Below are positions 3,670-29,741 of a DNA stretch of 33,102 bases, piece by piece. The stretch lies in the NCBI GenBank assembly GCA_003987775.1, contig RXJD01000051.1:1-33102 (forward strand), read 5' to 3'. The notes beneath the pieces were generated by a model. The model had not been told where the DNA came from, did no database searches, and saw only the letters and a program-made list of their open reading frames with translations. The stretch's first letter is position 1, and each line of letters starts with the position of its first letter. The position numbers and the translations under genes were made by a program. This stretch comes from Mycobacterium sp. (GTDB lineage Bacteria > Actinomycetota > Actinomycetes > Mycobacteriales > Mycobacteriaceae).

Positions 3670-7025
<3,356 letters not shown>

Positions 7026-7033
7026 GGCATCAC

Positions 7034-7038
7034 TCCTG
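7034..7038 (-). promoter_or_regulatory. ribosome binding site deciding the TTG start of dosR
   Basis: On the minus strand AGGAG stands eight bases before TTG 7025. No in-frame ATG or GTG lies nearby, so this spacing supports TTG initiation. A three-codon reading frame (ATG CCT TGG, then TAA) starts between the site and the TTG but has only two bases of spacing. Confidence 0.6.
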
Positions 7039-7050
7039 ATCTCGCCATTA

Positions 7051-7842
7051 CTACAGATTGCCGCTTCGCACCGTCAGCACCGAGGAGCCCGCGTTGTACA
7101 CGCTGCGCACCTGCGCGGCGTGCGCGTCGGTGACGAATAGCTGACCTGGCCCCTCGTTGTCAGCCATGTAGCGGCCACCGTGTCCCCGCACGATCGCCGA
7201 CTCCACCCGCACATCGGGATACAAGCGTGTCCACCGGGTCAGCCTGCGGTCCAATTGCGCTTTCGCCAAGCGGTTTCCGTCACCCGCCTGCGCATGGGTC
7301 TCCTGCACGGAAACGGCGCGCAGTGGGACGCCACGCAGGCGAGCCTCCTGGAAGGCATGGCGCAACACGGCGCCGTTGTCCGCTTCCGCGACCACTCGCC
7401 TGATCGTCGGGACAGTGGTGCCGTCGGGCGACCGGTGGATCACCGCGACGGGACACAGCGAGGATCCGGCCAGCGCGCCGGCAACGGATCCCTGACCGCT
7501 GTGCGCGTGATTGCGCCCGATCGAGCCGACACAGATCATCGACGCCGACCGGGACTCCTGCATCAGTTTGGTGAGGGGCCGGCCCCAGAGGATCTCGGTG
7601 TCGACCACGACCTCTTTGCCGGTCGCCTTGATCGCCTGCTGGGCGTCGAACAACGCCGCGCGCGCGGCTGCCTGGTGCCCGGCGATTCCGCCTGAGACTG
7701 GCGGCGATTCGATGACGTAGACCAGTCGCAGCGGAACGTCTCGGGTGACCGCTTCATCAATTGCCCACAGCGCAGCGTGCAGAGCCGCCCTCGAACCGTC
7801 GATACCCACGACGACTGCGGGACCTGAGTCGCGGCTGCTCAT
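7051..7842 (-). CDS. universal stress protein, tandem USP domains (Rv3134c-like)
   Basis: The product is 263 residues with two USP domains (about 8-140 and 150-263). The first has a VVVGIDGS start and a nucleotide-binding glycine motif in [18 protein letters not shown]. The second is more degenerate. Rv3134c of M. tuberculosis (268 residues) is the first gene of the dosRS operon and is DosR-induced; its biochemical role is not settled. A strong AAGGAGAG lies about five bases before the ATG. Two DosR-like boxes lie 65-105 bp upstream, consistent with autoregulation of USP-dosR-dosS. It is divergent from the nitric oxide reductase operon. Confidence 0.92.
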
Positions 7843-7906
7843 CGCGGTCTCTCCTTAACTCGAACGGTCGGCCAACCCGAACGCTATTGACCACTCGCCG
7901 GCCGCC

Positions 7907-7947
7907 CAAGAGGCGTTGGTCCCCGGATCGGTGGCTTAGGTCCCTAG
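7907..7947. promoter_or_regulatory. tandem DosR-box pair between USP-dosRS and norB
   Basis: Two overlap-free 20-mers start at 7907 and 7928, exactly 21 bp apart. The second, with core GTGGCTTAGGTCCC, matches the DosR consensus at about 14 of 20 positions; the first, with core GAGGCGTTGGTCCC, at about 11 of 20. The pair is 65 bp upstream of the USP start and about 120 bp upstream of norB, so it can autoregulate USP-dosRS and possibly act on norB. No experimental start site is known here. Confidence 0.6.
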
Positions 7948-8067
7948 AGCGAAGGGTTTCGCGCGAACTCTTGCCACCGCGGCACGCCGCGAATTTGATG
8001 GGTCTGGGCGCCCTGACGCTCGGGTGCCCGGGCAGAAGTTCGGTCGCCTACCCGGGGGTTCCTAGTC

Positions 8068-20762: not shown

Positions 20763-20810
20763 CGCATCGAGCACGGTGTGACTTCGGGACTTGCCCGGCA
20801 GCAAAACAAA

Positions 20811-20830
20811 AAGTAATGTCACTTTTACTT
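20811..20830. promoter_or_regulatory. inverted-repeat operator candidate of the catabolic operon
   Basis: The arms AAGTAA and TTACTT enclose eight bases (TGTCACTT) in an otherwise AT-rich stretch, 28 bp before the first ATG of the operon. This is a plausible site for the TetR regulator encoded inside the operon. CGGAG at 20846-20850 is the ribosome site of the first gene. Confidence 0.5.
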
Positions 20831-20858
20831 ATAGCTGTCGACCATCCGGAGCCGCTTC

Positions 20859-21968
20859 ATGGAATCGTTCGTCCACCTGCGTAAGGGCAGGACACCGCAC
20901 CGCGTGCACGCCGACCTCGACGGCCTCAAGGACGACGAAATGGGTCGCGGCGGGTTCGCCGGACGCACCGCCAACATCTACCGTCGCCACGACCCCACCG
21001 CCTACCGCGCGGTGGGCCCGCTGCGCCCGATCGATGTGCTGGCCGACCAGCTCAAGCCCAGTGACGCCACCGATGCCAACGGCGGACCGCTGGTGATGTT
21101 CACCAATCCCGACTGCCGGGTGCTGCTGAGCCGGCGCCACGACGAGATGCCCTTCTACACCCGGCACATTGACGGCGACCTGCTGTGCTTCGTACACAAC
21201 GGCGCCGGCCTGCTGGAAACGGAGTTCGGGCCGCTGCGCTACCGGCAGGGCGACTGGATCTATCTTCCGAAAGCCACCACGTGGCGCCAAATACCAGATA
21301 CCGAAACCACATTGCTGATGATCGAGGCCACCGACGAGTTCCGGGTCCCCCCGCCCGGGACACTCGGACGGCACTTCCCCTTCGATCCGGCACAGGCGGT
21401 CATCCCCGAGCCGGCACCGATCGACGACGACGGCCGCGACGAGTATGAGGTCCGGCTGATTCATCGGGAATCGGGCGATGCTGGGTCGACCACTATCCTT
21501 TATTACCAACACAATCCGATCGACGTCGAAGGCTGGCGCGGGGACAACTTCGCGTTCACCTTCAACATCGCCGACTACAACGTGATCACCTCCAACAGTG
21601 TGCATCTGCCCCCGACAGTGCATCTCTTCATGCAGGCAACCGGCGTCTACGTGATGAACTTCCTGCCCAAACCGGCCGAGGGCGTACCCGGCACCGAGCG
21701 CACCCCGTGGTATCACCGCAACGTCGACTACGACGAGATCGCGTTCTTCCACGGCGGATCGCTCTACGGCATACCGATGCCCCCGGGCCTGATATCCCAT
21801 GCGCCGCAGGGGGTTCACCACGGCGCACCGGAGAAGGCGCGGGAACGCGCCCGGCGCAAGTTCGATGAGTATTCCAGCGTCGACTGGCAGGTGATCGCCA
21901 TCGACACCCGGCGCCGGCTCACACCGTCGGCCGAGGTGCTGGCGCACGACCTGGGGCAGCACTCATGA
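20859..21968 (+). CDS. homogentisate 1,2-dioxygenase-like cupin
   Basis: The product is 369 residues, shorter than canonical homogentisate dioxygenases (about 430-445). The first cupin half has HIDGDLLCFVHNGAG, then FGPLRYRQGDWIYLPKATTW. The second half has probable iron ligands His286 and Glu293 in WYHRNVDYDEIAFFHGG and a histidine in SHAPQGVHHG. The fold implies Fe(II)-dependent cleavage of an aromatic ring or a related oxygenation. No maleylacetoacetate isomerase or fumarylacetoacetase gene follows, so a role in tyrosine degradation is not supported and the substrate is unknown. It is the first gene of a tightly packed operon, and its stop overlaps the hydrolase start (ATGA). Confidence 0.82.
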   Translation: MESFVHLRKGRTPHRVHADLDGLKDDEMGRGGFAGRTANIYRRHDPTAYRAVGPLRPIDVLADQLKPSDATDANGGPLVMFTNPDCRVLLSRRHDEMPFYTRHIDGDLLCFVHNGAGLLETEFGPLRYRQGDWIYLPKATTWRQIPDTETTLLMIEATDEFRVPPPGTLGRHFPFDPAQAVIPEPAPIDDDGRDEYEVRLIHRESGDAGSTTILYYQHNPIDVEGWRGDNFAFTFNIADYNVITSNSVHLPPTVHLFMQATGVYVMNFLPKPAEGVPGTERTPWYHRNVDYDEIAFFHGGSLYGIPMPPGLISHAPQGVHHGAPEKARERARRKFDEYSSVDWQVIAIDTRRRLTPSAEVLAHDLGQHS

Positions 21969-23134
21969 AACACGAGTACGAGCGGATCCCCTATCTTGTT
22001 GCGTTCCAGAACAATTCCGGCGTGCGTGACGTCTACGGCGGTCTTGCCGAGATCACCGTGCTGGAAAGCTATCTACTCAAGCCCAAGGACAAGCCGTCGG
22101 ACACCGTGCTGGTGTTCATGCATCCGATCGGCGGCGGCGCCTACCTGCCGATGATCAATGCGCTGGCCCGCGCCGGGCATCATGTCATCTACTGCAACAG
22201 CCGATTCCGCGGCACCGATTCGTCGTTGCTGATGGAGAAGGTGGTCGAGGACCTCGGCGAATGCATCAAGGACGCCAAGAACCGGTTGGGCTACCGCAAG
22301 GTGGTGCTGGCCGGCTGGAGCGGCGGCGGCTCGCTCTCGGTGTTCTACCAGCAGCAGGCCCAGCACGCGACCATCACGTCCAGCCCGTCCGGCGACGGGC
22401 CTGACCTGACCCAGCTCGAGCTGCCGCCCGCCGACGGCATCATGCTGCTGGCCGCGCACATCAGCCGGCACGGCACCCTGACCGAGTGGCTGGACGCCTC
22501 CATTCTCGACGAATCCGATCCCACCAGGCGTGATCCCGAGCTGGACATCTACAACCCGGACAACCCCAACCAACCGCCCTATAGCGAGGAGTTCCTCACC
22601 CGCTACCGCCAAGCGCAGATCGACCGCAACCGGCGGATCACCGCGTGGGTCCGCGACAAGCTGGCCGAATTGAAAGCGGCCGGACGACCGGATGACGAGT
22701 TCTGCTTCGTCGTGCACGGAACCATGGCCGACCCGCGCTGGCTGGACCCCACGGTCGACCCGAACGAGCGCACACCGGGCACCTGCTACCTGGGCGATCC
22801 CCAGGTGGTGAACATGAGCCCGGTCGGCCTGGCCCGCTTCTCGACGCTGCGCGGCTGGCTGTCGCAGTGGAGCTATGACGAGGCCCGGGGCGACGGCGTA
22901 GCGTGCGGGAAGGATCTCGCGATCCCGGCCCTGGTGATCGGTAACCTGGGCGACGACGCATGCACACCCAGCCACACCCGGCGGCTCTATGAGGCAATCG
23001 GGCACCCGGACAAGGAGATGCACGAAATTCCCGGCGCCACACACTATTACGCGGGTCCCGACCAGCGAGACAAGTTGCGGCAGGCGGTCGACATCGTCAC
23101 CGACTGGCTGACGCGGCACGGGTTCGCTGAATGA
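21965..23134 (+). CDS. alpha/beta hydrolase
   Basis: The product is 389 residues. The nucleophile elbow is AGWSGGGS with Ser119. An oxyanion-type segment FMHPIGGGAYLPM precedes it. Asp330 or Asp331 in GNLGDDACTP and His360 in PGATHYYAG complete the triad. The insert between about 140 and 300 is a large cap. Next to a ring-cleavage-type dioxygenase it may hydrolyse the cleavage product, an ester or a lactone; the last would yield a hydroxy acid for the kinase genes downstream. This is inference from context. It overlaps both neighbours by four bases. Confidence 0.85.
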   Translation: MKHEYERIPYLVAFQNNSGVRDVYGGLAEITVLESYLLKPKDKPSDTVLVFMHPIGGGAYLPMINALARAGHHVIYCNSRFRGTDSSLLMEKVVEDLGECIKDAKNRLGYRKVVLAGWSGGGSLSVFYQQQAQHATITSSPSGDGPDLTQLELPPADGIMLLAAHISRHGTLTEWLDASILDESDPTRRDPELDIYNPDNPNQPPYSEEFLTRYRQAQIDRNRRITAWVRDKLAELKAAGRPDDEFCFVVHGTMADPRWLDPTVDPNERTPGTCYLGDPQVVNMSPVGLARFSTLRGWLSQWSYDEARGDGVACGKDLAIPALVIGNLGDDACTPSHTRRLYEAIGHPDKEMHEIPGATHYYAGPDQRDKLRQAVDIVTDWLTRHGFAE

Positions 23135-24330
23135 CGGGTGCGCTGGACGGCATCAGGGTGCTCGAACTCGGCACGCTGATCGCCGGGCCGTTCGTCGGCC
23201 GCCTGCTCGGAGACATGGGCGCCGACGTCATCAAGGTCGAACCACCCGGCGCCCCGGATCCGTTGCGGACCTGGGGTCAGGCCGAGGTAGACGGCCACCA
23301 CGTGTTCTGGACGGTGCACGCCCGCAATAAGAGGGCCGTCACGCTCGACCTGCGCAAGCCGCGCGGACGCGAGCTGTTTCTGGAGCTCGTCGAGAAATCC
23401 GACATCGTGGTGGAGAACTTCCGGCCCGGCACCCTGGAGAAGTGGAACCTGGGCTACGACGTGCTCAGCGAACGCAATCCGGGCATCATCCTGGTCCGGG
23501 TCTCGGGCTACGGACAGACCGGGCCGGACGCACACAAGGCCGGCTATGCGTCGGTCGCCGAGGCGGCCAGCGGCCTGCGGCACCTCAACGGCTTCCCCGG
23601 TGGCCCGCCACCGCGGCTCGCGTTGTCGCTGGGCGACACCCTGGCCGGCATGTTCGGAGCGCAGGGCGCCCTTGCTGCCCTGTACCGCCGCAGTGTCACC
23701 GGACACGGTCAGGTGGTGGACGTCGCGCTGACCGAATCCTGTTTAGCGGTACAAGAATCCACCATCCCCGATTACGACGTCGGCGGCGTGGTGCGGGGGC
23801 CGTCGGGCACCCGCCTGGAAGGCATCGCTCCGTCGAACATCTACCAGAGCGCCGACGGCTCGTGGGTGGTGATCGCCGCCAACCAGGACACCGTGTTCGC
23901 CCGGTTGTGCAAGGCGATGGAGCGTCCGGAACTGGTCACCGACGACCGCTTCGCCAACCACGGCGCGCGCGGCCGGAACCAGGACGAGCTGGACGCGATC
24001 ATCGGCGCCTGGGCCGCCCAGCGCCGGCCCGCCGAGATCATCGAAACACTCTCGGCCGCAGGCGTGATCGCCGGCCCGATCAACACCGTCGCCGAGGTGG
24101 TCAACGACCCGCAGCTGCGAGCCCGCGACATGTTGGTGCCCCACCACGACGAACGGCTGGGCCGCGACGTCCTCGGTCCGGGCATCGTGCCGGTGCTGTC
24201 GGAATCTCCGGGCAGCGTACGCAATGCCGGGCCGGCCCGACCTGGCCAGCACAACGACGACGTCTACACCGGGCTGCTGGGCAAGACGGCTGACGACATC
24301 GCCGAGTTGGTGGCCGAGGAGGTGCTGTGA
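23131..24330 (+). CDS. family III CoA-transferase (CaiB/BaiF)
   Basis: The product is 399 residues. The N-terminus has VLELGTLIAGPFVGRLLGDMGADVIKVEPPG in register with the family, then NKRAVTLDLRKP and VVENFRPGTLEKW. The catalytic Asp169 lies in SLGDTLAGMFG, the same number as in formyl-CoA transferases. It moves CoA between a donor acyl-CoA and a carboxylic acid without ATP. In this operon it would activate the acid released upstream before the lyase, kinase and dehydrogenase steps. It overlaps the hydrolase gene (ATGA) and the lyase gene (GTGA). The acid and CoA donor cannot be predicted. Confidence 0.9.
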   Translation: MTGALDGIRVLELGTLIAGPFVGRLLGDMGADVIKVEPPGAPDPLRTWGQAEVDGHHVFWTVHARNKRAVTLDLRKPRGRELFLELVEKSDIVVENFRPGTLEKWNLGYDVLSERNPGIILVRVSGYGQTGPDAHKAGYASVAEAASGLRHLNGFPGGPPPRLALSLGDTLAGMFGAQGALAALYRRSVTGHGQVVDVALTESCLAVQESTIPDYDVGGVVRGPSGTRLEGIAPSNIYQSADGSWVVIAANQDTVFARLCKAMERPELVTDDRFANHGARGRNQDELDAIIGAWAAQRRPAEIIETLSAAGVIAGPINTVAEVVNDPQLRARDMLVPHHDERLGRDVLGPGIVPVLSESPGSVRNAGPARPGQHNDDVYTGLLGKTADDIAELVAEEVL

Positions 24331-25223
24331 ACTCCCACGTCGACATCCGCGAGGTCGCGCTGCGCGACGGATTGCAGATCGAGAAGCCGATCCCGTTGTC
24401 GGCCAAACTGGAACTGCTGGCCGCGGTGGCCGCCACCGGGGTGCGCGAGGTCGAAGCCACCGCGTTCGTGTCGCCGTCGAAGGTGCCGTCGATGGCCGAT
24501 GCCGCGGAGTTGGCCGCCGAACTGCACAACTACCCCGACATCGACTTCTCCGCGCTGGTGGCCAGCCCGAACGGGGCCAGGCGCGCGATCGCCGCGGGGC
24601 TGCGATCCATCGAGTACGTGGTCGCGGCCTCCGATGCGTTCAGCCAGGCCAACGTCGGACGGTCCAGCGCCGAGGCGACCCGCCAGATCAGCGAAATCGT
24701 CGCCATTGCACACGACGCCGGCGCGTCCGTCGAGGTGATCGTCGCCACCGCGTGGGACTGCCCGTTCGACGGGTCCACTGCGCCACAACGGGTGCTCGAC
24801 ATCGCCGTCGCGGCACGCGAGCAGGGTGCGGACCGGTTCTGCATCGCCGACACCATCGGCACCGCCACCCCGGGGCGGGTGAGTTCGCTGATCGCGCAAC
24901 TCCATCCGGTGATCGGTGAGCTGCCGCTGGGGGGACACTTCCACAACACCCGCGGCGCCGGGCTGGCAAGTGCCTACGCCGCCGTCGCGGCCGGTGTCAC
25001 CCGCCTGGACGCTTCGGTCGGCGGCTTGGGCGGCTGCCCGTTCGCGCCGGGTGCGACCGGCAACATCGCCACCGAGGACCTGGTGTACCTGCTGACCGAC
25101 AGCGGATTCGAGGTCGACGTCGATCTGCCGGCGGCGATCGCCGCCGCGCAGGTCGCCAGAACCGCTGTCGGCCACGACCTCCCGAGCGCCCTGCTGCGCG
25201 CGGGAGACCGGATGCGCACCTGA
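24327..25223 (+). CDS. hydroxymethylglutaryl-CoA lyase family protein
   Basis: The product is 298 residues, starting at GTG 24327 (MNSHVDIREVALRDGLQIE). DRE-TIM barrel lyase features are present: metal Asp in LRDGLQ, HFHNTRG metal histidines, and the signature GGLGGCPFAPGATGN with Cys237 followed by IATEDLVYLL. The fold cleaves 3-hydroxy-3-methylglutaryl-CoA or related 3-hydroxy-acyl-CoAs into acetyl-CoA plus a keto compound. Other HMG-CoA-forming genes for leucine degradation are missing nearby, so the true substrate may be a different branched 3-hydroxyacyl-CoA. Translationally coupled to the CoA-transferase (GTGA) and to tetR (TGATG). Confidence 0.88.
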   Translation: MNSHVDIREVALRDGLQIEKPIPLSAKLELLAAVAATGVREVEATAFVSPSKVPSMADAAELAAELHNYPDIDFSALVASPNGARRAIAAGLRSIEYVVAASDAFSQANVGRSSAEATRQISEIVAIAHDAGASVEVIVATAWDCPFDGSTAPQRVLDIAVAAREQGADRFCIADTIGTATPGRVSSLIAQLHPVIGELPLGGHFHNTRGAGLASAYAAVAAGVTRLDASVGGLGGCPFAPGATGNIATEDLVYLLTDSGFEVDVDLPAAIAAAQVARTAVGHDLPSALLRAGDRMRT

Positions 25224-25834
25224 TGCCGGCCGAGGTGCTCAGCGCCAAGGGCCAGCAGACCCGCCAGTCCATCGAACAGGCTGCGCGGAAGTTGTTCGCC
25301 GAGAGAGGTTTTCACGGCACCACCCTGGCCGACATCACTTCGGCGGCGGGAAAATCGTCAGCGGTGTTCTACCGCTACTTCACCGACAAAGAAGATCTGC
25401 TGGCCGCGCTGGCGGAGTCGTTTTTGCATGACGTGGTCGAGCCGTCCGGGTTGCGGGTTCACCTACCGGAATCTCCCGACGACGACGCGTTCTTCACCTC
25501 GGTGGTCACCGGCTACTGGAGCATGTTCAAACAGAACATCGGCATCATGATCGCGGTGGCACAGCTGGCCGCCACGCAGCAGCGTTTCGCCGACGTTCAG
25601 AACGAGTTCCGGCGATTCGGGATGGATATCGTCGCGGCCTCGGTGCGCCGCGCGCAGGAACAGGGTTACGCCACCGAGCTGAATCCAGAGCATACGGCGG
25701 CGGCCATCGCGCTGCTGTTCGAGAACTTCACCACCGTGTTCGTCGGAAAGCCGGACCTGGGGGTGACGATCACCGACGACGAGGCCATCGCCCTGCTGTC
25801 GCGAATATGGAAGAAGACGTTGTACGGCGCCTGA
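25223..25834 (+). CDS. TetR family regulator within the catabolic operon
   Basis: The product is 203 residues. The HTH region (about 12-58) reads QTRQSIEQAARKLFAERGF, then LADITSAAGKSSAVFYRYF. The ligand domain follows. Its ATG shares one base with the lyase stop, so it is made from the operon mRNA. It most likely controls the operon through the inverted repeat at 20811-20830, with a CoA thioester or pathway intermediate as inducer (inference). The site could also lie in the short gap at 25835-25854, but I see no palindrome there. Confidence 0.88.
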   Translation: MPAEVLSAKGQQTRQSIEQAARKLFAERGFHGTTLADITSAAGKSSAVFYRYFTDKEDLLAALAESFLHDVVEPSGLRVHLPESPDDDAFFTSVVTGYWSMFKQNIGIMIAVAQLAATQQRFADVQNEFRRFGMDIVAASVRRAQEQGYATELNPEHTAAAIALLFENFTTVFVGKPDLGVTITDDEAIALLSRIWKKTLYGA

Positions 25835-25854
25835 CGACCTAAGGAGAGATCAAC

Positions 25855-27093
25855 GTGGATTTCAGCCTCCCCGAACACCTTCCGGGCTTGCTCGCCGAGA
25901 TGGACGAGTTCATCGAGACGGAGATCAAGCCGCTGGAACGGGAGAACATCCAGTACTTCGACCACCGCCGCGAAAATGCCCGCACGGATTGGGACAACGG
26001 CGGCATCCCGCGCCGGGAGTGGGAGGACCTGCTCGGTGAGATGCGCAGGCGTGCCGACAAGGCGGGCTGGCTGCGGTACGGGCTGCCCGCGCAGTTCGGT
26101 GGGCGCGACGGCACCAATATCGACATGGCCGTCATCCGGGAGCACCTGGCGCACAAGGGACTCGGCCTGCACAACGACCTGCAGGACGAATCGTCGATCG
26201 TCGGCAACTTCCCGCAGGTCATCATGATGGACCGGTTCGGCACCGACGCGCAGAAACAGGAGTGGACCGAGGCGCTGATCACCGGCGAACGGTCGATGGC
26301 GTTCGGGCTGACCGAGCCCAAGCACGGCTCGGATGCCACCTGGCTGGAAACCACCGCCGTCCGCGACGGTGACGGCTGGGTGATCAACGGCGCCAAGCGA
26401 TTCAACACCGGCGTGCATCGCGCCACCCACGACCTGGTGTTCGCCCGCACCTCCGGTGAACCCGGCCAGGCGCGCGGCATCACGGCGTTTCTGGTGCCGT
26501 GCGACTCCCCCGGTTTCACCATCCCGTACTACTGGTGGACGTTCAACATGCCCACCGATCACGCCGAGGTGGAACTCAAGGACGTCCGGGTGCCCGACGA
26601 CGCGATACTCGGTGAGCTGGACCGCGGCCTGGAGGTAGGCCAGACCTTCCTGCACGAGAACAGGATTCGTCAGGCCGCCAGTAGCCTCGGCGCCGCTCAG
26701 TACTGCATCGACCGCGCCGTGGCCTACGCCGGGGAACGCCACGTCTTCGGCAAACCGCTGGCGGTCAACCAGGCGGTGCAGTGGCCGCTGGTCGAATTGC
26801 AGACCGAGGCGCAGATGGTGCGCCTGTTGGTGTATTACGCCGCAACGCAATTGGACCAGAACCACCACATGGAGGTCTCGGACAAGGTGTCGATGGCCAA
26901 CTACCGGGCCAACCGTCTGGTGTGCGACGCCGCCGACCGCGCGATGCAGGTGCTCGGCGGTATCGGGTACAGCCGCCACGAGCAACTCGAACACATCTAC
27001 CGCCACCACCGGCGCTACCGGATCACCGAGGGCGCAGAGGAGATTCAGATTCGCCGGGTTGCCCAGCGGCTCTTCAAGTTCGGCAAGAAGTGA
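25855..27093 (+). CDS. acyl-CoA dehydrogenase family protein
   Basis: The product is 412 residues, starting at GTG 25855 (MDFSLPEHLPGLLAEMDEF) with AAGGAGAG eight bases upstream. It has FGLTEPKHGSDATWLETTA in the FAD/substrate region, GERHVFGKPLAVNQAVQWPL, VLGGIGYSRHEQLEHIYR, and RITEGAEEIQ with Glu392 as the probable base. It is followed directly by an APH-like kinase gene (GTGA overlap) and a DUF6285 gene. That arrangement is found in levulinate-type 4-hydroxyacid operons and, as a fusion, in mammalian ACAD10/11. In those systems the dehydrogenase-fold enzyme acts on the 4-phosphoacyl-CoA. Assignment to that reaction here is inference. Confidence 0.88.
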   Translation: MDFSLPEHLPGLLAEMDEFIETEIKPLERENIQYFDHRRENARTDWDNGGIPRREWEDLLGEMRRRADKAGWLRYGLPAQFGGRDGTNIDMAVIREHLAHKGLGLHNDLQDESSIVGNFPQVIMMDRFGTDAQKQEWTEALITGERSMAFGLTEPKHGSDATWLETTAVRDGDGWVINGAKRFNTGVHRATHDLVFARTSGEPGQARGITAFLVPCDSPGFTIPYYWWTFNMPTDHAEVELKDVRVPDDAILGELDRGLEVGQTFLHENRIRQAASSLGAAQYCIDRAVAYAGERHVFGKPLAVNQAVQWPLVELQTEAQMVRLLVYYAATQLDQNHHMEVSDKVSMANYRANRLVCDAADRAMQVLGGIGYSRHEQLEHIYRHHRRYRITEGAEEIQIRRVAQRLFKFGKK

Positions 27094-28043
27094 CGCTGTC
27101 CGACAGCTTGACCGCCCTGCTGACGCCGGTGCTGGGCGAGGGCGTGGCCATCGACAACCTGCGGGTGCTCACCGGCGGTGCCAGCCGCACCACCTGGGCG
27201 TTCGACGCGGTCACCGGCGGCGATCGCCGGCCACTGATCCTGCGCACCGGGCCCCCCGACGACATCCACGCCGGGATGGAGCTGGAAGCCCGGGTTCAGG
27301 CGGCCGCGGCAGCCGCGGGCGCGCCGGTGCCACACGTGCTGATCGCGGACAATTCGCTTGCAACACTGGGCAACCCGTTTCTGATCTGCGAGGAGATCAA
27401 GGGCGAGACCATCGTCCGGCGGATCTTCCGCCAACTCGACGACCCGCCGCGGCTGCTGCGGCAGTGCGCCCAGGCCCTCGCCGCCATCCATCGCGCCGAT
27501 GCCGGCGACCCCGATCTGGCACACGAGGACCCCGTCGAGCACTCCCGCCAACAGCTCGACGACATGGGCGACACCACAGCCACTTTCGAATGGACGATCC
27601 GCTGGCTGACCAGCCACCGGCCGGCGCCATCGCCCACGGTGCTGGTGCATGGTGATTTCCGGATGGGAAACCTGATCGTCGACGGCTCCGACCTGGCCGC
27701 CGTGCTCGACTGGGAACTGGTGCACGTCGGCGAGCGCTACGAGGATCTGGCCTGGTTCTGCGTGCGCGCCTGGCGGTTCGGCGCCCCAGCCAGTCGCGCC
27801 GCGGGCGGGCTGGGCAGCATCGAGAGCTTCCTGCGCTTCTATGAGGAGGCCGGCGGGACGACCGTCGACCGGACCGCGTTCCACTGGTGGCTGGTGCTGG
27901 CCACGTTGCGCTGGGGGGTCATCTGCCGTTATCAGGCGGAACGCCACCTGTCCGGCCAGACCCGCTCGGTGGAACTGGCGACGATCGGGCGCCGGGTGTG
28001 CGAGAACGAGTGGGATCTGCTTGACCTGTTGGAGGATTCATGA
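27090..28043 (+). CDS. APH-like phosphotransferase, putative 4-hydroxyacyl-CoA kinase (LvaA-like)
   Basis: The product is 317 residues. GTG 27090 overlaps the dehydrogenase stop (GTGA), giving MTLSDSLTALLTPVLG. The N-lobe has NLRVLTGGASRTTWAF and LILRTGPP. The catalytic loop is VHGDFRMGN with Asp189 and Asn194, and the metal-binding motif is LDWELVHVG with Asp207. Aminoglycoside-kinase-like enzymes of this kind paired with an acyl-CoA dehydrogenase include LvaA of Pseudomonas and the kinase domain of ACAD10/11, which phosphorylate 4-hydroxyacyl-CoAs. Antibiotic resistance is unlikely in this context. The following DUF6285 gene, fused by ATGA, would be its partner. Confidence 0.82.
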   Translation: MTLSDSLTALLTPVLGEGVAIDNLRVLTGGASRTTWAFDAVTGGDRRPLILRTGPPDDIHAGMELEARVQAAAAAAGAPVPHVLIADNSLATLGNPFLICEEIKGETIVRRIFRQLDDPPRLLRQCAQALAAIHRADAGDPDLAHEDPVEHSRQQLDDMGDTTATFEWTIRWLTSHRPAPSPTVLVHGDFRMGNLIVDGSDLAAVLDWELVHVGERYEDLAWFCVRAWRFGAPASRAAGGLGSIESFLRFYEEAGGTTVDRTAFHWWLVLATLRWGVICRYQAERHLSGQTRSVELATIGRRVCENEWDLLDLLEDS

Positions 28044-28396
28044 ACCTGCACGGCCGGCCGACCGCGGCCGAACTCGTCGCCGCCGTCGCCGAATTTCTGG
28101 AACGCGACGTCCGGGACGCCACCGCCGGGCAGGTCAACTCGCACATCAATTTCCAGGCCCGGGTGGCGGCCAACGCGCTGCGCATGGTCGAGCGGGAACT
28201 GCAGAACCCGGGCGCATCCGACGTGGAAGCGGCACTGGCCGGGCTGGGATTTGCCGATGAAGCCGGGCTCGCCGCCGCCATCCGGGCCGGTGATCTGGAC
28301 GGCCGCGACGGCGACGTGGTCGCCTGCCTGCGCACGCTGGTGAGCCACCGGCTTGCTGCCGCCCATCCCGGATACGACAAGGAGCCGCAGTCATGA
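28040..28396 (+). CDS. DUF6285 small protein, probable kinase partner
   Basis: The product is 118 residues: MNLHGRPTAAELVAAVAEFL, then HINFQARVAANALRMVEREL. This alpha-helical pattern matches what I know as DUF6285, small proteins found beside APH-like kinase and acyl-CoA dehydrogenase genes. In the levulinate operon a small protein (LvaB) is needed together with LvaA for 4-hydroxyacyl-CoA phosphorylation. By position this is its counterpart, though identity of the families is inferred. It overlaps both neighbours by four bases, which suggests fixed stoichiometry. There is no signal peptide or membrane segment. Confidence 0.75.
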   Translation: MNLHGRPTAAELVAAVAEFLERDVRDATAGQVNSHINFQARVAANALRMVERELQNPGASDVEAALAGLGFADEAGLAAAIRAGDLDGRDGDVVACLRTLVSHRLAAAHPGYDKEPQS

Positions 28397-28788
28397 CCGT
28401 CAATGAGCTCGCAGACCGCCTGTTTTCCGCCATCGAGAACGGCGATCGAGCCACCGTCGCTTCGATGTGGAGCGAGAACGTCGCCGTCTGGCGCACCGAC
28501 GGCCGCCGCGACGCCACCACATGCGATGACAAGCCGCGGGCGTTGCGCGTCATCGACTGGTTCCTCTCGACCACCGCATCGCGCGGCTACCAGATCCTGG
28601 ATCGCCAGGTCTTCGAGAACGGATTCGTCCAGCAGCATGTGTTGCACGCCACCGGTCACGGCGGCCAATCGATCGCGATGCGGGTTTGCATCGTGATCAA
28701 GGTGGACACAGAAGGACTTATCGACCGAATCGACGAGTACTTCGACCCCGCGGAACTCGCGCCCCTACAAGTGAGGGACCCACGATGA
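28393..28788 (+). CDS. NTF2/SnoaL-like protein
   Basis: The product is 131 residues: MTVNELADRLFSAIENGDRATVASMWSENVAVWR, in the family's cone-shaped alpha+beta order, closing with IDRIDEYFDPAEL. SnoaL-like proteins are isomerases, hydratases or binding proteins for small hydrophobic ligands. No catalytic dyad can be assigned. It is coupled to DUF6285 and YceI by ATGA overlaps, so it belongs to the same pathway. A role as isomerase/hydratase for a pathway intermediate is a guess. Confidence 0.75.
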   Translation: MTVNELADRLFSAIENGDRATVASMWSENVAVWRTDGRRDATTCDDKPRALRVIDWFLSTTASRGYQILDRQVFENGFVQQHVLHATGHGGQSIAMRVCIVIKVDTEGLIDRIDEYFDPAELAPLQVRDPR

Positions 28789-29327
28789 CCACCCTGGAAA
28801 CGCTGCTCAGCGACCCGGAAACCGTCGGACCCTGGGCTCTGGTGCCCGACCGCTCGGCGGTCACCTTCAAGATCCGCAACATGTGGGGGCTGATGCCCGT
28901 CAAAGGTTCGTTCACCCAGTTCAGCGGCGAAGGACGGCTGACTCAGGGCGGCGCGGTATCGGGCCGGATCGACATCGAGGTGGCCTCGCTGGACAGCGGG
29001 ATCGGGCGCCGCGACAAGCACCTGCTGTCGGCCGACTTCTTCGATGCCGAGCGCTTCGCCACGATCAGCGTCGTCGTCAATGCGCTGCAACCGGGCACCG
29101 GGAAATCCGCCGACCTACGCACCCACTTCACCATCAAGGGCATCACCGAACCGGTGTCGCTGCCGGTGACGATCACCGAACTCGACGACGGCTCGGTACA
29201 AATCTCGGGCCGTTCGCAGATCGACCGATCCCGGTTCGACCTGGGGTGGAACAAACTCGGGGTGATGTCCAATGCGGTCACGGTGTCCGCTGAGGCAGTC
29301 TTCGTGCGGTCGGTCGGCGGCGCGTGA
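28785..29327 (+). CDS. YceI family protein
   Basis: The product is 180 residues. I chose ATG 28785 (MTTLETLLSDPETVGPWALV), which overlaps the preceding stop (ATGA). The YceI lipocalin-like barrel is recognisable from WALVPDRSAVTFKIRNMWG, IDVEVASLDSGIGRRDKHL with FFDAERFATISV, and FDLGWNKLGVMSNAVTVSAE. No signal peptide is present, so it is cytoplasmic. Family members bind isoprenoid or amphiphilic lipids. In this operon it may carry a hydrophobic substrate. It is the last gene of the operon before an Rv3143-like gene 15 bp away. Confidence 0.82.
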   Translation: MTTLETLLSDPETVGPWALVPDRSAVTFKIRNMWGLMPVKGSFTQFSGEGRLTQGGAVSGRIDIEVASLDSGIGRRDKHLLSADFFDAERFATISVVVNALQPGTGKSADLRTHFTIKGITEPVSLPVTITELDDGSVQISGRSQIDRSRFDLGWNKLGVMSNAVTVSAEAVFVRSVGGA

Positions 29328-29342
29328 ATTAACATCGCACCC

Positions 29343-29741
29343 GTGCCCGACACCACCCCACTGCGCGTCCTCGTTTACAGCGACAACGTCCACACCCGCG
29401 AACAGGTGAAGCAGGCCCTGGGCAAACGGCTGCACCCGGACCTGCCCGAATTGAGCTACGTCGAGGTCGCCACCGGCCCGATGGTGATCCGCACGATGGA
29501 CGAGGGCGGTATCGATCTGGCCATCCTCGATGGAGAGGCGGCGCCTACCGGCGGCATGGGCATTGCCAAGCAACTCAAGGACGAGTTGTCGTCCTGCCCG
29601 CCGATTTTGGTCTTGACCGGGCGCCCCGACGATGCGTGGCTTGCCAGCTGGTCGCGTGCCGAGGCGGCAGTGCCCCATCCGCTCGACCCGATCGTGCTGG
29701 GCCGGACGGCGCTGAGCCTGTTACGCGCCCCCGCGCACTAG
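29343..29741 (+). CDS. stand-alone receiver-domain protein (Rv3143-like)
   Basis: The product is 132 residues, starting at GTG 29343. It is a single CheY-like receiver: LRVLVYSDN, the phospho-acceptor region LAILDGEAAPTGGMG, and LVLTGRPDD. There is no output domain. The normal Lys of the receiver active site is not clear, with PHPLDP in its place, so phosphorylation may be atypical. M. tuberculosis Rv3143 (133 residues) lies at the same place beside PPE52 and the nuo operon. Its partner kinase is unknown. It is only 15 bp from yceI and five bases from the convergent PPE gene. Confidence 0.85.
   Translation: MPDTTPLRVLVYSDNVHTREQVKQALGKRLHPDLPELSYVEVATGPMVIRTMDEGGIDLAILDGEAAPTGGMGIAKQLKDELSSCPPILVLTGRPDDAWLASWSRAEAAVPHPLDPIVLGRTALSLLRAPAH

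Follow-up and report, generated by a model that had tools for sequence, protein, structure and literature searches.

What might a mycobacterium degrade with an operon that is headed by a homogentisate-dioxygenase-like gene, and yet lacks the partners of this enzyme in tyrosine catabolism? The question is raised by a contig of Mycobacterium sp. (assembly GCA_003987775.1, contig RXJD01000051.1, here C34), the whole of which, 33,102 nucleotides read on the forward strand, is referred to as the window; the host genome is 7.29 Mb in size. Positions 20859 to 29327 contain ten genes, all pointing the same way. We propose, with a probability of roughly one half, that they form a catabolic operon under TetR control whose substrate is an aromatic compound of the hydroquinone type (2,5-dihydroxy), distinct from homogentisate, and in which an upper unit feeds a CoA-dependent lower unit. 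The comparison with related genomes reveals a shared gene order, an operator-like palindrome, the iron ligands of a cupin, the pairing of this cupin with a hydrolase and the modularity of the set; the chemical steps, TetR binding, cotranscription and the substrate are what we infer.

In the proposed pathway, the first gene, a cupin of the homogentisate-dioxygenase superfamily (20859..21968; 369 aa; PDB relatives 3zds and 1ey2), would use Fe(II) to open a hydroquinone-type ring, and an alpha/beta hydrolase (21965..23134; 389 aa; Hydrolase_4, 36.2 bits) would cut the ring-cleavage product, in the place held by fumarylacetoacetase (FAH) in tyrosine catabolism. A class III (CaiB-type) CoA-transferase (23131..24330; 399 aa; CoA_transf_3, 416 bits) would load CoA onto the dicarboxylate or hydroxydicarboxylate product, and an HMG-CoA-lyase-like enzyme (HMGL; 24327..25223; 298 aa; NF004283, 276.2 bits vs. 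a cut-off of 246) would split the CoA ester, with release of acetyl-CoA plus either a keto acid or a ketone. An APH-fold kinase (27090..28043; 317 aa; APH, 119.9 bits) paired with a DUF6285 protein (28040..28396; 118 aa; PF19802, 78.2 bits) may phosphorylate a hydroxyacyl-CoA that is also handled by the acyl-CoA dehydrogenase (25855..27093; 412 aa; Acyl-CoA_dh_1, 148.6 bits), while the TetR regulator (25223..25834; 203 aa; TetR_N, 59.8 bits) would sense the substrate or an intermediate of the upper path. The lower, CoA-dependent unit could be useful by itself. A SnoaL-like protein (28393..28788; 131 aa; SnoaL_2) and a YceI-like protein (28785..29327; 180 aa; YceI, 114.1 bits) complete the set as probable accessories. 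The succession of ring opening, hydrolysis and CoA loading, already suggested in the initial annotation, seems to us a sensible order for a catabolic operon.

All ten genes are on the plus strand and are as tightly joined as had been described, with overlaps of one or four bases read from the sequence at eight of the nine junctions. Four bases are shared between the cupin and hydrolase, hydrolase and CaiB, CaiB and HMGL, dehydrogenase and kinase, kinase and DUF6285, DUF6285 and SnoaL, and SnoaL and YceI genes, and one base between the HMGL and TetR genes; the only junction without overlap is a 20-base gap between the TetR and dehydrogenase genes. The Pfam and NCBIfam profiles with which we assigned the families agree with the names given earlier, except that the SnoaL match falls slightly below its cut-off (26.1 vs. 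27 bits) and that the match to homogentisate dioxygenase is weak (HgmA_N, 21.0 bits vs. a cut-off of 20.2 bits).

The operon is a near-fixture of Mycobacterium and present in most of the sampled genomes of the genus, with a cupin match in 175 out of 198 (E ≤ 0.001), six of which appeared fragmentary or split. Close homologs with 64–100% identity, the window included, were found in 40 of the 251 genomes in a family-wide draw, and half of these 40 belong to the same genus. The named loci discussed below are the best 80 of 330 confirmed; since the named and unnamed sets overlap (L051 and L146, for example), the locus counts are not independent. Among these best 80, the closest cupins (91–92%) are from two strains of Mycobacterium gordonae and a Mycobacterium metagenome-assembled genome. 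The search for the gene order across relatives showed that the order cupin, hydrolase, CaiB, HMGL, TetR, dehydrogenase, kinase, DUF6285 is never broken among the markers detected in the 80 named loci, inserted genes being outside this count. The genes from the cupin through DUF6285 are present in 74 of the 80, and all eleven markers, including a response regulator that follows YceI, in 57; the six loci that end before DUF6285 have less than 7.6 kb of sequence past the cupin. SnoaL and YceI each went undetected in some loci.

A 16-bp palindrome, AAAGTAATGTCACTTT (20810..20825), located 49 bases upstream of the cupin within a conserved block from about 20804 to 20832, is the proposed TetR site. 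It has a single exact match in the whole host genome, which is the one before the cupin; if two mismatches are allowed there are two further places, as compared to six matches per strand for a reversed control pattern. With at most one mismatch, the palindrome is present 39–73 bp before the cupin in 78 of the 80 named loci and at no other site in 1.56 Mb of sequence, and with at most two mismatches it is present in all 80. The mean column identity is 0.97 within the palindrome but only 0.37–0.42 in the flanks. A conserved CTTG (20790..20793, plus strand), which is the center of CCTTGTG in many relatives, may be a -35 element: a CTTG starts at -40 to -14 relative to the operator in 72 of the 80 loci, and columns -20 to -17 are 89–95% conserved. 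The conservation in 80 of 80 loci and the sole exact match in the genome suggest that the operon is one TetR-controlled unit, with TetR presumably binding at the palindrome. In two loci (L062 and L305) there is an insertion between HMGL and TetR, with a second copy of the palindrome (two mismatches) about 100 bases before TetR; as both copies read alike, they may represent a single event.

The cupin has retained the full set of Fe(II) ligands. An alignment of 20 cupins shows no variation at H286, E293 and H321, which match the iron ligands of 3zds (human His335, Glu341 and His371), with the Glu region shifted by one residue (DE in place of E), as is also the case in cupin relatives linked to 4-hydroxyphenylpyruvate dioxygenase (HPPD). 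H249, likewise invariant in 20 aligned sequences, is aligned with the His of 3zds that by inferred numbering is equivalent to His292. In an article on homogentisate dioxygenase (PMC6337169), His292 is described as contacting a ring hydroxyl and His365 as being hydrogen-bonded to the iron-binding Glu. At the position of this second-shell His, which precedes the third iron ligand by six residues, all nine hydrolase-linked cupins have Ala or Phe; they have also lost a loop Arg, and the loop itself is shorter by one to three residues. Both residues are retained in all 18 comparison cupins. The nine do, however, share a His one residue before the His365 position, which might substitute for it. The hydrolase-linked cupins form one group in the tree (support 100/99), in which L088 sits on a long branch with a placement that the program reports as unsure. 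Given the loss of the second-shell His and the loop Arg, and the lack of an HPPD above the cut-off in the host genome (best match 34.8 vs. 277 bits), the simplest reading is that the substrate of the cupin has changed.

More distant cupin relatives in the phylum, at about 34–43% identity, have an HPPD gene and/or a gene of the FAA_hydrolase superfamily nearby in 14 of the 19 loci without the hydrolase. Profiles were used to check three of the ten HPPD and three of the 11 FAA_hydrolase genes of these loci, and the rest were named by eye; counted over all lineages, the four HPPD genes checked all scored above the HPPD cut-off, and the three hydrolases from the HPPD-linked lineage all belong to the FAA_hydrolase superfamily, with none above the fumarylacetoacetase cut-off. 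A third cupin lineage (about 30–38%) has an FAH-like neighbor in 11 of the 12 loci examined, and both of those scored were above the fumarylacetoacetase cut-off. The score of the window's cupin against the homogentisate dioxygenase equivalog (TIGR01015, 39.3 bits vs. a cut-off of 510.75) does not discriminate, because four actinobacterial relatives near HPPD or FAH genes also fall below the cut-off (56–76 bits). The initial annotation had noted that the tyrosine-pathway partners are absent. For HPPD this stands, as it does for FAH within the operon by the Pfam scan, but genes of the FAA_hydrolase superfamily are present at seven other places in the host genome, none of them on the operon contig.

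The cupin is accompanied by the hydrolase in all 20 near loci examined (L051–L070), with one hydrolase frame broken and one pair separated by an intervening gene. S119, D330 and H360, the putative catalytic triad of the hydrolase, are invariant in 26 aligned sequences, a set that includes the window and in which all are at least 80% identical to it. A pairing of this kind occurs a second time, and independently, in L213 (genome G238, 3910–7840). The dioxygenase there is of the FAH-linked lineage and has kept the second-shell His and the loop Arg; next to it, in the place that FAH takes in other loci, comes a hydrolase with 40% identity to that of the window, and after this a fused 3-oxoacid CoA-transferase.

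Genes upstream of the cupin provide a hint about the source compound. In five loci (L057, L059–L061 and L063), HsaA-like monooxygenase genes, with scores under the equivalog cut-off, precede the cupin by no more than three genes; in L064/L065 they are near the cupin but on the opposite strand. In L069, an HpaB-like gene, also under the equivalog cut-off, is located two genes upstream. The host has an HsaA-like flavin monooxygenase gene (a 71% relative) adjoining a TetR gene on another contig (C70, L121, 9292–10981), and relatives of this pair (monooxygenase about 68–73%, TetR about 58%) stand ahead of the cupin at further loci in mycobacteria. Since HsaA- and HpaB-like genes precede the cupin in relatives, the analogy favors as source a phenol that hydroxylation would turn into a hydroquinone. 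For the upstream gene in L069, which could also be read as a 4-hydroxybutyryl-CoA dehydratase, the NCBIfam profiles place HpaB monooxygenases nearest, whereas the two best PDB matches are entries of the CoA dehydratase/isomerase type.

The next two enzymes belong to the same families as SUGCT and HMG-CoA lyase. Among the PDB relatives of CaiB, SUGCT (succinate-hydroxymethylglutarate CoA-transferase, 9br7) ranks third, but the CaiB score of 250.1 bits is far below the cut-off of 750 for the NCBIfam succinate-glutarate equivalog (NF052585), so the acid that it acts on is not fixed. HMGL is above the cut-off for the HMG-CoA-lyase subfamily and has kept the cysteine loop GGCPxA, GLGGCPFAPGATGN being aligned with 6nds. 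An HMGL-like gene adjacent to a CoA-transferase gene also occurs as a stand-alone pair. In Skermanella and Nitratireductor this pair adjoins TctABC carboxylate transporters; on the Mycobacterium avium plasmid pP7a, where alone the transferase is named CaiB/BaiF, it does not. These pairs differ from the operon in that they stand beside transporters or other genes and without ring-cleavage genes. Plasmid pP7a (L115, L316 and L320) also carries relatives of the cupin (46%) and the hydrolase (52%), in separate places from each other and from the CaiB-HMGL pair, and several cytochrome P450 genes are located near these relatives.

The dehydrogenase and its kinase bring to mind the lvaABCDE levulinate pathway and mammalian ACAD10/ACAD11, in which an APH-fold kinase is partnered with an acyl-CoA dehydrogenase. 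In the window, the segment TEGAEEIQ of the dehydrogenase is aligned to YEGTSEVQ, in which the Glu normally serves acyl-CoA dehydrogenases as catalytic base, and thus has Glu rather than Asp at this position. Among the PDB matches to the dehydrogenase, the ACAD11 entry 8v3u is the 33rd, at 123.5 bits compared to 162.9 bits for the best. As characterized in two reports (PMC12440821, PMC11342911), the LvaC/ACAD10/11 subgroup has a catalytic Asp and identities of 56–62%. As judged from this alignment, in which ACAD11 rather than LvaC itself represents the subgroup, the dehydrogenase is placed outside it. The breakdown of a 4-hydroxyacyl-CoA, which the initial annotation had proposed, is therefore unproven, and levulinate is an unlikely substrate because the operon contains no gene of the LvaD or LvaE type. 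On the same two grounds we set aside a levulinate or 4-hydroxyvalerate pathway.

The PDB matches of the kinase include 3dxp (50.5 bits) and, more weakly, the ACAD11 entry 8v3v (30.5 bits over residues 63–257 of that entry). The DUF6285 gene is the sole PF19802 match in the host genome, and one weak match was found on plasmids. We drew 20 DUF6285 loci across the phylum from 39 genomes with a match, using a gene caller trained on mycobacterial genes. A kinase adjoins DUF6285 in 12 of these, is fused to it in one more, as a single open frame of 482 residues (L264 in G038, 6524–7972), and was not recognized in the other seven. LvaB, the small partner in the lva system, presumably belongs to DUF6285 as well. 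Dehydrogenases 64–66% identical to that of the window are paired with related kinases, but without the cupin, in G059, G244, G162, G141, G707 and G675, and such a pair is accompanied by DUF6285 above the cut-off in G244 and below it in G707 (24.8 vs. 28.1 bits). No paper that uses the word DUF6285 was found in the open-licence literature.

The modularity of the set was missed in the earlier reading. The cupin is absent from 23 genomes of the genus, and the 20 of these that are listed were scored for the kinase together with six in which the cupin is fragmentary. A kinase with 64–81% identity is present in nine of the 20, although that of G708 has stops, four have only a relative at 37–38%, and the kinase is kept in all six fragmentary-cupin genomes. 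Nine loci were mapped (five cupin-less, four fragmentary), in addition to G707 and G675. Three genomes (G686, G651 and G721) are without cupin, hydrolase and TetR but have kept CaiB, HMGL, dehydrogenase, kinase and DUF6285; in G772 the cupin is absent and the hydrolase truncated; in G683 the cupin is reduced to a stub of 48 residues; and G085 has only the last five genes, from the dehydrogenase to YceI. L298 and L300 still have the palindrome, along with remnants of the first part of the cupin, and L301 contains an apparent hydrolase remnant. A comparison of the lower genes of G686 and G651 gave omega values of 0.04–0.23 at synonymous differences of 0.17–0.39. If the upper genes were lost before the split of these two genomes, as seems likely, the low omega values would mean that the lower part is still under selection without the upper part. 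The persistence of the lower genes without ring-cleavage genes implies that the set need not be a strictly linear pathway. In G085 (L306), where the genes from the cupin to TetR have been lost, the gap that separates the quinone-oxidoreductase-like gene from the dehydrogenase is filled by a long inverted repeat, with arms judged by eye to be about 23 bases each; it could be a terminator-like hairpin or a small insert.

Several observations weigh against a single pathway for a hydroquinone-type compound. The upper and lower parts can be separated, and are 187 kb apart in G038, and may therefore serve different substrates. The kinase module is often absent from the cupin locus in non-mycobacterial relatives, and no kinase (E ≤ 1e-25) was found in seven of the 20 listed genomes of the genus that lack the cupin. 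Even with two mismatches allowed, the palindrome went undetected in four of the 12 unnamed loci of the same genus (L055, L059–L061) and in the loci of other genera, and with three allowed it was still not detected in L299, L301 and L306, which are damaged. G686 and G651 have deletion scars that resemble each other without being identical, so that a loss before their split is no more than likely. The hydrolase family occurs on plasmids in many unrelated catabolic settings, with the best plasmid matches at about 47–52% identity, so that its chemistry and substrate are not fixed by family membership. Finally, the structure predictions, made from shallow alignments of close relatives, are poor, with mean pLDDT values of 40.2 and 56.0.

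We also considered the possibility that the cupin is a plain homogentisate dioxygenase and that the operon degrades homogentisate derived from hydroxyphenylacetates, with the alpha/beta hydrolase replacing fumarylacetoacetase. The HPPD and FAA_hydrolase neighbors of the 34–43% relatives and the hydrolase in the FAH position of L213 would fit this explanation, and the operon resembles the homogentisate pathway (HmgA-FAH, with or without SCOT) in its dioxygenase superfamily, in having a hydrolase after the dioxygenase and in the CoA-transferase downstream. However, it differs in having no HPPD, an alpha/beta hydrolase instead of FAH, CaiB and HMGL instead of SCOT, an added kinase module and a cupin in which the second-shell His is lost. 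Homogentisate breakdown yields fumarate or maleate and acetoacetate, for which neither the kinase nor HMGL is needed, and we consider this explanation unlikely. A true tyrosine pathway is weakened by the same loss of the second-shell His and by the absence of HPPD above the cut-off in the host.

Rather than one pathway, two or three unrelated catabolic units could share a promoter, with ring cleavage and hydroxyacyl-CoA handling having no metabolite in common. This would account for the cupin-free kinase-dehydrogenase pairs in six genomes, for the five genes that remain in G085, for the distance between the modules in G038, and for the fact that the only gap in the operon falls exactly at the border between TetR and the dehydrogenase. 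It is nevertheless improbable in our view, as the gene order is fixed across the genus and the whole set has a single conserved palindrome. We find it more doubtful still that the cupin acts on a substrate without a ring, such as a beta-diketone, and the hydrolase on an ester or a lactone. The residues around the metal site do set the cupin apart from its HPPD- and FAH-linked relatives and the hydrolase family is broad, but the cupin has kept the full iron triad and H249, the equivalent of His292, and phenol-monooxygenase-like genes are located near the cupin in relatives. We favor the hypothesis of a hydroquinone-type substrate other than homogentisate.

The operon is a new arrangement of known kinds of enzymes. 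The initial annotation knew of no described pathway with such a content, and we likewise found no matching pathway or operon in the open-licence literature, judged mostly from titles and the beginnings of abstracts. A bolder hypothesis, which we put forward only tentatively, is that it represents a central route for aromatic compounds in mycobacteria that this literature does not describe, in which a neofunctionalized cupin would open a substituted hydroquinone, such as the methylated or prenylated head group of a quinone, the alpha/beta hydrolase would replace fumarylacetoacetase, and the branched acids would be degraded by CoA transfer, HMGL cleavage and a kinase-DUF6285-dehydrogenase unit unlike LvaC/ACAD11. 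The idea of a prenylquinone comes from the YceI neighbor, a family that binds isoprenoids, and from structural reasoning alone. An operon so common in the genus offers a concrete and testable way into what environmental mycobacteria eat. Furthermore, the recurrent association of an APH-type kinase and DUF6285, once fused, with a dehydrogenase that is not of the ACAD10/11 type hints at a second type of acyl-CoA chemistry assisted by phosphorylation. An alpha/beta hydrolase that takes over from fumarylacetoacetase, as seen in two lineages of dioxygenases, would be a neat example of one enzyme replacing another.

The surroundings of the operon include two fadE-type genes (15379 and 16801) and a quinone-oxidoreductase-like gene (19785). 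On the other side is a response-regulator-like gene (29343–29741, plus strand), named by eye, which starts 15 bases past YceI and may be cotranscribed with the operon; a PPE gene is also found in the flanks, and nuo genes in those of relatives. This neighborhood is probably the counterpart of the fadE24-fadE23-fadB4 ... Rv3143-PPE52-nuo region in Mycobacterium tuberculosis.

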